Of a DNA stretch of 6,319 nucleotides, positions 1,324 to 4,527 are shown piece by piece. The notes beneath the pieces are model-generated. The model searched no databases. It saw only the letters and a program-made list of their open reading frames with translations, and had not been told where the DNA came from. Positions within the stretch are counted from its first letter, which is position 1. Every line of letters begins with the position of its first letter. Origin of the DNA: a bacterium (GTDB lineage: Bacteria > JALSQH01); NCBI GenBank assembly GCA_026985515.1, contig JALSQH010000259.1, positions 1-6,319 of the forward strand, in the 5' to 3' direction. The position numbers and the translations under genes were made by a program.

Positions 1324-1344
1324 AATGATTTTGTTATATAAACT
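1317..1344 (+). promoter_or_regulatory. candidate promoter of the modE-wtpABC operon
   Basis: A perfect -35 hexamer TTGACA (1317-1322) is followed after 16 bp by TAAACT (1339-1344), a 4-of-6 match to the -10 consensus that keeps the second A and final T. The predicted start near 1351 lies only a few bases before the modE ATG, so the mRNA would be nearly leaderless. The -10 and start lie inside the ModE-like operator, the arrangement expected for repression. TATAAA (1337-1342) is a better hexamer but sits only 14 bp from TTGACA. Confidence 0.35.
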
Positions 1345-1354
1345 TTTACATAAC
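1333..1354. promoter_or_regulatory. ModE-type operator (22-bp dyad)
   Basis: The half-sites GTTATATA (1333-1340) and TACATAAC (1347-1354) are separated by AACTTT. They match as an inverted repeat at 7 of 8 positions. The pattern is very like the E. coli modA operator recognised by ModE, recalled as CGTTATATT...TACATAACG. The gene starting 1 bp further on encodes a ModE with an intact oxyanion site, which makes autoregulation the natural reading. The site covers the proposed -10 and transcription start of the operon and lies about 10 bp upstream of the -35 of the divergent reductase promoter. Confidence 0.65.
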
Positions 1355-1355
1355 G

Positions 1356-2102
1356 ATGAATCAGGTGGAGAAGTTAATTTACTCATTGTCAAGGGAAAGA
1401 TATGTGAGATTTCTAAATCTTCTTGCACAGAGGCACTCCATCTTATCGGCTTCAAAAGAGGCTGGTGTCAGTTACAGGAAGGCGTGGGAAATAGTTGAAA
1501 CACTGCGGGAAATCTTTGGCAGTGAGATTTTTGATACCAGAATAGGTGGAATTCATGGTGGCGGAACCTATATAACATCACAGGGGGAGGAGGTGCTGGA
1601 GTATCTTGAGAAATTCCGCACTCTGTTTGTTAACGAACTTGGTGTGATGGAAAAAAAGGGACTGAGTGAGCTGATCGCTCTTATTAAAAGAAGAAGAGTC
1701 CGCACCAGTGCCCGCAATCAACTTGAGGGAGTGGTAAATTCTATTTCCAGAAAAGGGATCATTGTTGATGTTGAGATAGATGTAAAGGGATTCTTTTTTC
1801 TCACCAGGATAACTGAAAAAAGCCTTAAAGATCTTGATCTGCAAAAAGGAAAAGATGTTTTCCTTCTTATCAAAGCTCCACATGTCAGGATTGTTAAAAA
1901 TTGTAAGGGTTATAATTGCTTTGAAGGTGTTGTTGAGAGTATTTCCGGAGAGAAGGGAGGGGATTCCCCATACTTTGAAGCGGAAATTTCCCTGTCACCA
2001 GATTTGACCCTTGTATCTGTGGTAACAGATAAGACAATTTTGCAGAGGAAAGGGAAAGTTAAGATTTTCATACCTCCGGAGGAAATAATTGTGGGAGTTT
2101 AG
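1356..2102 (+). CDS. modE: ModE-family molybdate/tungstate-responsive transcriptional regulator
   Basis: This 248-residue protein matches the domain plan of E. coli ModE. A winged helix-turn-helix comes first (about 16-75), with AQRHSILSASKEAGVSYRKA and KAWEIVETL as recognition region, G64-G65 and HGGGTYIT as the wing and TSQGEEVLEY after it. A linker helix follows, then two TOBE (Mop) domains at about 116-181 and 186-248. The first keeps the oxyanion-site motifs: TSARNQLEG (117-125), ITEKS (152-156) and LLIKAP (170-175). The second, from NCFEGVVESI, is more diverged. It should bind molybdate or tungstate as a dimer and repress the operon through the dyad at 1333-1354. The ATG at 1356 is chosen because it preserves the N-terminal helix expected before the HTH, yet no Shine-Dalgarno precedes it since the operator occupies that space. 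GTG at 1365 is a less likely start. It is the first gene of the operon and ends 3 bp before wtpA. Confidence 0.92.
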   Translation: MNQVEKLIYSLSRERYVRFLNLLAQRHSILSASKEAGVSYRKAWEIVETLREIFGSEIFDTRIGGIHGGGTYITSQGEEVLEYLEKFRTLFVNELGVMEKKGLSELIALIKRRRVRTSARNQLEGVVNSISRKGIIVDVEIDVKGFFFLTRITEKSLKDLDLQKGKDVFLLIKAPHVRIVKNCKGYNCFEGVVESISGEKGGDSPYFEAEISLSPDLTLVSVVTDKTILQRKGKVKIFIPPEEIIVGV

Positions 2103-2105
2103 AAG

Positions 2106-3047
2106 ATGAAAAAATGGCTTATTTTATTTTTTCTCCTTGTTTCCCCTCTCTTTGCAGGCAGTAAAGTTATACTGAAGGTTTTTCACGCTGGCAGTCTCTC
2201 TATTCCATTCAGGGAAATGAAAGAGGAGTTTGAAGAGAAACATCCAGAAGTGGAGGTTAGACTTGAACCAAGTGGGAGTGTTCTTGCCATCAGAAAGATC
2301 ACTGATCTTCACAAATCGGCTGACGTGGTGGCTGTGGCTGATTATTCACTCATAGAGAAGATGCTTTTCCCCACTTATGCAGATAGAGTTTATATCTTTG
2401 GAGCAAACGAGATGGTTCTGGCATTTTCAGATCACTCAAAATATCACAGGTTAATTAATGAAAGAAACTGGTATGAAATTCTTTCTATGCCCGGAGTTAA
2501 GTGGGGCTTTTCCAATCCTCTCCTGGACCCCTGTGGTTACAGTACCCTTGTAACAATTGCTCTTGCTGAGGAGTATTACAGAAAAAAAATCTTTAGCGAG
2601 CTTGTTTCACCCTTTCTGAATGTAACCTTCTCCGGGAGAAAGATTCTCCTTCCATCTGAAATAAAATTGAAGGGAAGAAAAGTTTATATGCGTCCCAAGG
2701 CTGTTGAACTCCTTGGTCTGATTGAAAGTGGTTTTCTTGACTATATTTTTGAATATCGCAGTGTTGCAATGCAGCATCGTCTGAAATTTTTAAAATTGCC
2801 TGAGGAAATTAATCTTTCATCGTTGAAATTCAGAAAATATTACTCAGGCGTAAAAATCCTCTTTCCATCGGGGAAGATAATTTCGGGGAAGCCCATTCTG
2901 TATGGTATTTCACCTTTACTTAACGCTCCTCATCCTCACTGGGCCCGGGAGTGGGTGAAGTTTGTTACCGGGAAGAGAGGTGCGGAGATAATGGAGAGAA
3001 ATTTTCAGAAGAGTATATATCCACCAGTGGTGGAAAAAGCACGATGA
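2106..3047 (+). CDS. wtpA: tungstate/molybdate ABC transporter substrate-binding protein (WtpA type)
   Basis: This 313-residue extracytoplasmic binding protein captures tungstate or molybdate for the WtpBC transporter. Residues 1-18 (MKKWLILFFLLVSPLFAG) form a Sec signal peptide with no lipobox cysteine, so the mature protein is predicted to be soluble in a periplasm. WtpA hallmarks are present: VFHAGSLSIPF (25-35), EPSGSVLAIRKITDL (54-68), DVVAVADYSLI (73-83), NWYEIL (121-126), GFSNPLLDPCGY (134-145) and DYIFEYRSVAMQH (212-224). From known WtpA/ModA structures, an Asp and a Glu complete octahedral metal coordination; the likely counterparts here are D141 and E216. The sequence fits WtpA better than TupA. 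GGGAG (2093-2097) lies 8 nt before the ATG. It follows modE by 3 bp and overlaps wtpB by ATGA. Preference for tungstate over molybdate cannot be read from sequence. Confidence 0.92.
   Translation: MKKWLILFFLLVSPLFAGSKVILKVFHAGSLSIPFREMKEEFEEKHPEVEVRLEPSGSVLAIRKITDLHKSADVVAVADYSLIEKMLFPTYADRVYIFGANEMVLAFSDHSKYHRLINERNWYEILSMPGVKWGFSNPLLDPCGYSTLVTIALAEEYYRKKIFSELVSPFLNVTFSGRKILLPSEIKLKGRKVYMRPKAVELLGLIESGFLDYIFEYRSVAMQHRLKFLKLPEEINLSSLKFRKYYSGVKILFPSGKIISGKPILYGISPLLNAPHPHWAREWVKFVTGKRGAEIMERNFQKSIYPPVVEKAR
3021..3033 (+). promoter_or_regulatory. dyad over the wtpB ribosome binding site
   Basis: CCACC (3021-3025) can pair with GGTGG (3029-3033) around a 3-nt loop. GGTGG is the only plausible Shine-Dalgarno for the wtpB ATG at 3044, so folding would hide it until ribosomes translating the end of wtpA melt the hairpin. 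That would couple wtpB translation to wtpA. The dyad lies in wtpA coding sequence and may be chance. Confidence 0.25.
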
Positions 3048-3820
3048 GAAACGGGGTATTGAGGATAAGTTTCTTTTCAGAGTTGATCCTGATTTCTGTT
3101 TTGTTAACTCCAATCTTGATTTTTCTATTTAAGACTGATCCTGCTATGCTGAAAAAAGTTGCCGGTGATGGAGAGGTATGGAGAGCAATTGAAGTAACTT
3201 TTTTCTCTGCCTTTGTGTCTACACTCCTTGGTGTCATAATCGGTGTGCCTGCCGGATACTTTCTTGCGAGAAAGAGAGGTGCTGTTTTTAGATTTATTGA
3301 AAATCTGGTGGTGTTGCCCACCCTCATTCCTCACGCAATAGTGGGAATTATGATCCTCTTGCTATCTACAGAAAATAATGTAGTTGGTTCTCTCCTTCAA
3401 AAAGCAGGAATATATTTTGTTGATCACTTTGTCGGGATTGTTGCAGTAGTGTTTTTTGTAAGTGTTTCATACATTGTTTCTTCTGCAATTTCTGGATTTA
3501 CATCTTTCCCCGTATCCATCGAAGAAACTTCATATACTCTCGGCATAGGGAGTGTCAAGACCTTCTTGCACATTTCTCTGCCTCTGGCCTTTCCATCAAT
3601 ATTAAGGGGAGCAATTTTATCCTTTGCCAGAGCGATGAGCGAGACGGGTGCACTCCTGATAGTTGCCACCTATCCCAGGACTGCACAGATTCTTATTCTT
3701 GACCGTTTTGAAACCTCAGGTTTAAAGGAGGCTCAGGCTATTTCCTTTATAGTCATTTTTCTGAGCCTCACTCTTTTTGGATTACTTTTTATCACAGGCA
3801 CAGGAAAGAAGAGGATATGA
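3044..3820 (+). CDS. wtpB: tungstate/molybdate ABC transporter permease (WtpB type)
   Basis: This 258-residue inner-membrane permease is expected to work as a homodimer and form the oxyanion channel. About six hydrophobic segments can be seen, near residues 12-30, 50-75, 88-108, 129-153, 184-208 and 231-252. The cytoplasmic EAA loop that docks on the ATPase is at about 160-186 (EETSYTLGIGSVKTFLHISL, then P180), with the conserved Gly and the ISLP ending. ARAMSETGALL (196-206) is typical of molybdate and sulfate-class permeases. The start chosen is the ATG at 3044, which overlaps the wtpA stop as ATGA. An in-frame ATG at 2951 would add 31 polar residues encoded antiparallel to nothing but wtpA itself and is rejected. 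The length is normal for the family. It overlaps wtpC by another ATGA, indicating translational coupling and stoichiometric production. Confidence 0.92.
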   Translation: MRNGVLRISFFSELILISVLLTPILIFLFKTDPAMLKKVAGDGEVWRAIEVTFFSAFVSTLLGVIIGVPAGYFLARKRGAVFRFIENLVVLPTLIPHAIVGIMILLLSTENNVVGSLLQKAGIYFVDHFVGIVAVVFFVSVSYIVSSAISGFTSFPVSIEETSYTLGIGSVKTFLHISLPLAFPSILRGAILSFARAMSETGALLIVATYPRTAQILILDRFETSGLKEAQAISFIVIFLSLTLFGLLFITGTGKKRI

Positions 3821-4527
3821 GCAGGAGAATGTATGTTCATTTTGAAAAAAAGTTTGAAAATTTTGAAGTAAATGTGGAACTGGATTACGACCTTGAGAAG
3901 TACCATGTTATCATTGGTCCGAGCGGCAGTGGAAAGACCCTCACTCTCAGGTTTATTGCAGGCCTGGAGAGTGGCAAAGGCAGGGTGGAATTTGAAGGGA
4001 GAGAGATAACGAAATTTCCTCCCCAGAGGAGAAGGATTGTATATATACCGCAGGATGAGTCCCTTTTTCCTACCATGACGGTGCAAATGAATCTTCTGGC
4101 AGGTGTTAAACTCGGGAAGAGTGATTTTGACAGAGATCTGTTTGAGAGAATTGTTGACGTTTTCAAAATAGAGCATCTACTTGATAGATATCCATCCACG
4201 CTCTCAGCAGGTGAAAAACAGCGTGTTACTCTCGGAAGAGCAATAATGGTAAAGCCCAGGTTACTACTCCTCGATGAGCCTTTTTCCTCCCTTGATTTTC
4301 ACATTAAACTTGAATTGATAGAATTTTTAAAAAATGTGAAAAAAGAATTTGGTACTTCATTTATTCATGTAACCCACGACCCCATTGAGGCTAAATTGCT
4401 TGCAGAATGCGTTACAGTAATAGAGGAAGGAAAAGTAACTTACAGAGGAAATTTTACCACCCTTGTGGAGTCCTCCCGGAGTAGATTTACAGAAAGAGTG
4501 TCTGAATTCTTTTCCTATTTGAAGTAG
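3817..4527 (+). CDS. wtpC: tungstate/molybdate ABC transporter ATP-binding protein (WtpC type)
   Basis: This 236-residue cytoplasmic ATPase powers the WtpB channel. All nucleotide-binding motifs are intact: Walker A GPSGSGKT (34-41), Q-loop Q79 in YIPQDESLFPTMTV, signature LSAGEKQR (129-136, with A and E where LSGGQ is usual), Walker B LLLLDEP (149-155) with E154, D-loop SSLD (157-160) and H-loop H187 in HVTHD. The protein stops shortly after the nucleotide-binding domain. The C-terminal TOBE regulatory domain that makes many ModC/WtpC proteins about 340-360 residues long is missing, so oxyanion feedback presumably rests on ModE. The ATG at 3817 is set by the ATGA overlap with wtpB, with AGGAAAG at 3802-3808 as ribosome binding site. 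The 3' end overlaps the convergent acylase gene by 13 bp. The alternative is another small oxyanion ATPase, but context makes WtpC clear. Confidence 0.92.
   Translation: MSRRMYVHFEKKFENFEVNVELDYDLEKYHVIIGPSGSGKTLTLRFIAGLESGKGRVEFEGREITKFPPQRRRIVYIPQDESLFPTMTVQMNLLAGVKLGKSDFDRDLFERIVDVFKIEHLLDRYPSTLSAGEKQRVTLGRAIMVKPRLLLLDEPFSSLDFHIKLELIEFLKNVKKEFGTSFIHVTHDPIEAKLLAECVTVIEEGKVTYRGNFTTLVESSRSRFTERVSEFFSYLK

Follow-up and report, generated by a model that had tools for sequence, protein, structure and literature searches.

The window is a whole contig of 6319 bases from a draft genome of 2.36 Mb. It contains modE (positions 1356–2102, plus strand), a set of wtp transporter genes downstream on the same strand, a divergent short-chain dehydrogenase gene on the minus strand (positions 429–1274, assigned by Pfam) and the 3' part only of a penicillin-amidase gene, also on the minus strand. 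The first transporter gene, wtpA (positions 2106–3047), encodes a tungstate/molybdate-binding protein that scores 321 bits with TIGR03730, above the cut-off of 242.75. Permease and ATPase genes adjoin it, and the transporter is of the WtpA type, as an earlier note on this DNA had proposed. The permease gene wtpB (positions 3044–3820) and the wtpC-like ATPase gene (positions 3817–4527, 236 aa) have NF040839 and NF040840 as their respective best matches, the former below the curated cut-off and the latter below the equivalog cut-off. The ATPase covers only positions 7–224 of the 347 in NF040840. A search of it for a Mop/TOBE domain gave no Mop match; the ATPase lacks the domain that the reference WtpC has at its C-terminus. 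A short WtpC is also found at archaeal loci L125 and L127, and the missing domain is therefore not diagnostic. The gap between modE and wtpA is 3 bases, and the wtpA/wtpB and wtpB/wtpC pairs overlap; because of this tight spacing, modE-wtpABC probably forms one operon.

An intergenic segment elsewhere in the window (positions 331–355) is a perfect hairpin, TTCCGTCACC-TAAAT-GGTGACGGAA. The genome has six further matches at up to 3 mismatches, and the reversed control has 1. Some copies have paired changes on both arms (TTCCGTCATCC/GGATGACGGAA), and three are clustered on contig C11 with a spacing of approximately 63 bases. The hairpin is a putative member of a dispersed palindromic repeat family.

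The modE product was identified by NCBIfam and Pfam, by a PDB sequence match and by a fold match. It has an N-terminal winged helix-turn-helix, a first Mop/TOBE domain and a degenerate second Mop domain. The winged helix-turn-helix is detected by TIGR00637 at E=1.9e-17, but the score of 63 bits is below the curated cut-off of 98.5; PF03459 and TIGR00638 (Mop/TOBE) exceed their cut-offs. Among solved structures, E. coli ModE is the closest in sequence (1o7l, E=9e-17). An AlphaFold2 model with a mean pLDDT of 82 also has E. coli ModE as its first fold match. A different placement of the domains in the two proteins keeps the overall TM-score at only about 0.5, while the di-Mop part by itself can be superposed at 2 Angstrom. 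The oxyanion-site motifs reported earlier as intact are all found in the first Mop domain (SARN 118–121, ITEKS 152–156 and IKAP 172–175). All eight mapped residues, S118, A119, R120, N121, T153, S156, K173 and A174, are identical in the alignment to E. coli S126–N129, T163, S166, K183 and A184, residues that line the oxyanion site in the published ModE structures and have a role in binding. The mapped ligand residues and overall fold are thus alike in the two proteins, whereas the window ModE has a shorter N-terminus and a degenerate second Mop domain. The description of this ModE as full-length therefore holds only with two reservations. The N-terminus before the helix-turn-helix is clearly shorter than in other ModE proteins by sequence comparison, and is modeled as a helix where these have a strand. 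Most motif residues are missing from the second Mop repeat, which is modeled as a strand-rich Mop-like unit.

Directly upstream of modE is a 22 bp dyad, GTTATATA-AACTTT-TACATAAC (positions 1333–1354), found exactly where it had been placed; a single base, G1355, lies between it and the ATG at position 1356. It is two-fold symmetric, with an 8-6-8 spacing and arms of the consensus type. The E. coli ModE consensus is ATCGNTATATA-N6-TATATANCGAT (PMC545781). Relative to this consensus, the element is better drawn as 28 bp (positions 1330–1357) than as 22 bp. It then agrees at 17 of the 20 specified positions; the outer left arm has TTT where the consensus has ATC, and the right arm runs two bases into the modE ATG. 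The E. coli modA operator, taken from a sequence record, is GTCGTTATATTGTCGCCTACATAACGTT. Its two 8-base arms agree with those of the window site at 15 of 16 positions and the six-base spacer is common to both, which bears out the near-identity to the enterobacterial operator that had been suggested. The two sites share the 8-6-8 dyad but differ in setting, as the E. coli operator precedes modABC and the window operator precedes modE-wtpABC and touches its start codon.

The dyad is not due to chance. A shuffled window is expected to have 0.03 dyad matches at up to 3 mismatches. A Markov simulation of the 86 bp intergenic region, which includes the first modE bases, was scored against the 16 positions of CGNTATRTA-N6-TAYATANCG, and a score of at least 15/16 was reached in about 1.5e-5 of the simulated copies.

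A consensus scan predicts a modE-wtpABC promoter on the plus strand with a -35 of TTGACA (positions 1317–1322) and a -10 of TAAACT (positions 1339–1344), the latter inside the operator. The spacer is 16 and 10 of 12 consensus bases are present. The putative operator thus lies upstream of the transport operon, at a promoter predicted by consensus. The transcript would start near position 1351, which gives a leader of about 5 bases. No ribosome-binding site was found before the ATG at 1356, in agreement with so short a leader. Neither of the alternative starts, GTG 1365 or TTG 1386, improves on ATG 1356 in its ribosome site; a later start would abolish the overlap of operator and ATG, but the operator itself would remain. 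An SD-like sequence, AGGTGGAG, is present within modE at positions 1363–1370. A riboswitch was considered in place of an operator, and the window has no Rfam match.

The dyad is very probably a ModE operator overlapping the promoter -10 and the modE start, by which oxyanion-loaded ModE would shut off modE-wtpABC. In this model, ModE dimers that carry molybdate or tungstate would bind the dyad and cover the -10 and start, which would block RNA polymerase. Abundant metal would thereby turn off the regulator together with the WtpABC importer of its own operon. Repression, and with it negative autoregulation of the operon, is likely because the predicted -10 sits inside the dyad. Sequence, position, promoter overlap and conservation across lineages all fit the control of modE-wtpABC by a ModE operator that the earlier note had put forward.

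The conservation of the dyad was assessed with distant relatives only. No close orthologue of the operon was found: of the two genomes of the phylum examined, the second has neither this ModE, nor this WtpA, nor the operon, and a genome-wide scan at the peptide level with ModE gave no match. The comparison of upstream regions that had been called for therefore draws on distant relatives, and in substance it bears the proposal out: the dyad is found at 14 ModE-adjacent wtpA loci and in three other modE lineages. The modE sample consists of 13 distinct Mop-containing ModE genes from far-flung genomes, window included. A dyad of at least 14/16 is located within 19 bp of the start in six of these, the window among them. 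Since three of the six are from a single family, the number of independent lineages is four with the window counted; in the three other bacterial lineages the dyad is 3–19 bp before modE. About half of the sampled genes have no dyad directly upstream, e.g., E. coli, which has its site before modA, and autoregulation is therefore not universal.

The second sample consists of 80 named WtpA loci, with the pattern CGNTATR-N10-YATANCG sought upstream of wtpA at 10/12 or better. It is present at 34 of the 80. It occurs at every one of the 14 loci that have a true ModE-type gene nearby (12 at a shuffle p of 0.05 or less), and at none of the six whose only helix-turn-helix is a distant LysR-like one. 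These 14 loci all come from archaea, chiefly Methanosarcinales, Archaeoglobi and Bathyarchaeota-like lineages, and do not count as independent cases. The dyad is also upstream of several Bacteroidales wtpA genes. Nine loci from archaea and Bacteroidales (L125, L137, L139, L159, L163, L169, L170, L174 and L179) show a ModE-type dyad of identical geometry 5' of wtpA, with the ModE gene outside the stretch examined. Archaeal wtpABC-modE operons (e.g., L127, L138 and L154) have the transporter type and dyad geometry of the window; however, their modE gene is last and encodes no or one Mop domain, whereas in the window modE is first and encodes two Mop repeats. The strong conservation of the recognition code that had been claimed is consistent with this recurrence across lineages, and conservation across phyla was already published. 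Studholme and Pau described ModE elements outside enterobacteria in 2003 (cited in PMC545781); these elements of other phyla have the E. coli-type consensus but belong to different lineages. The Geobacter sulfurreducens site also has the E. coli-type consensus, but it is located at -158 (PMC545781), while the window site abuts the start codon.

The 2.36 Mb genome as a whole was covered by pattern searches. The dyad at 1333–1354 is the sole exact copy and best match, and the strict consensus within 2 mismatches finds this site alone. The 3-mismatch class is not enriched (9 versus 16 in the reversed-pattern control), and only the window site therefore stands out. The relaxed pattern gives three other sites at one mismatch, all within long reading frames, and fewer matches than the reversed control. 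No dyad was found in the stretches examined around the aldehyde ferredoxin oxidoreductase, molybdopterin oxidoreductase and MoeA genes. As no further operator was found in these searches, ModE regulation looks local to the modE-wtpABC operon.

A second, single-domain ModE-like gene is present in the same genome (G000, contig C33:6652–6906, L062) and has a relative (L063) in the only other genome of the phylum examined. Its protein has a ModE helix-turn-helix and may bind the dyad instead of or besides the operon ModE, and single-domain ModE genes beside archaeal wtpABC also have the dyad. This is nevertheless improbable, in that the C33 gene has no good upstream dyad of its own (score 10/16, shuffle p 0.5) and is not on the wtp contig, while the operon ModE adjoins the site.

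It is marginally less probable still that the dyad is a real ModE site that acts as an activator or mainly controls the divergent dehydrogenase gene. Divergent promoter-like sites do share the region: by consensus scan, a dehydrogenase promoter-like site at positions 1323–1295 overlaps the modE -35 region. However, the dyad extends over both the predicted modE -10 and the start codon, it lies upstream of the predicted -35 of the dehydrogenase, and sites over a -10 usually repress. Activation has a precedent in E. coli, where ModE also activates moaA (PMC2408646), but the arrangement of the window site does not point to it. Least credible is a chance resemblance of an A+T-rich promoter to a ModE operator: the 86 bp region is 30% G+C and near matches in the genome do not exceed the control, but the simulated frequency of such a score is very low and the site is directly before modE.

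The preferred reading, a ModE operator over the modE promoter, makes the window site a clear but ordinary new example of an operator type known outside enterobacteria since 2003. The position of modE first in the operon, the short WtpC and the abutting operator are variations on a known theme. In many WtpABC systems the metal feedback can sit on the ATPase domain of the transporter itself. It is conceivable, though unlikely, that here this feedback is left wholly to the co-transcribed two-Mop ModE, with the operator fused to a nearly leaderless start, in a self-contained tungstate-sensing import module. Established views are unchanged by a single case, which adds a poorly sampled bacterial lineage to the users of the E. 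coli-type ModE code. In the survey, the dyad is a mark of many wtpABC operons across Archaea and of some in Bacteroidales, and ModE recognition is therefore a notably stable operator code across two domains. With so stable a code, regulation in uncultured lineages can be predicted from sequence.
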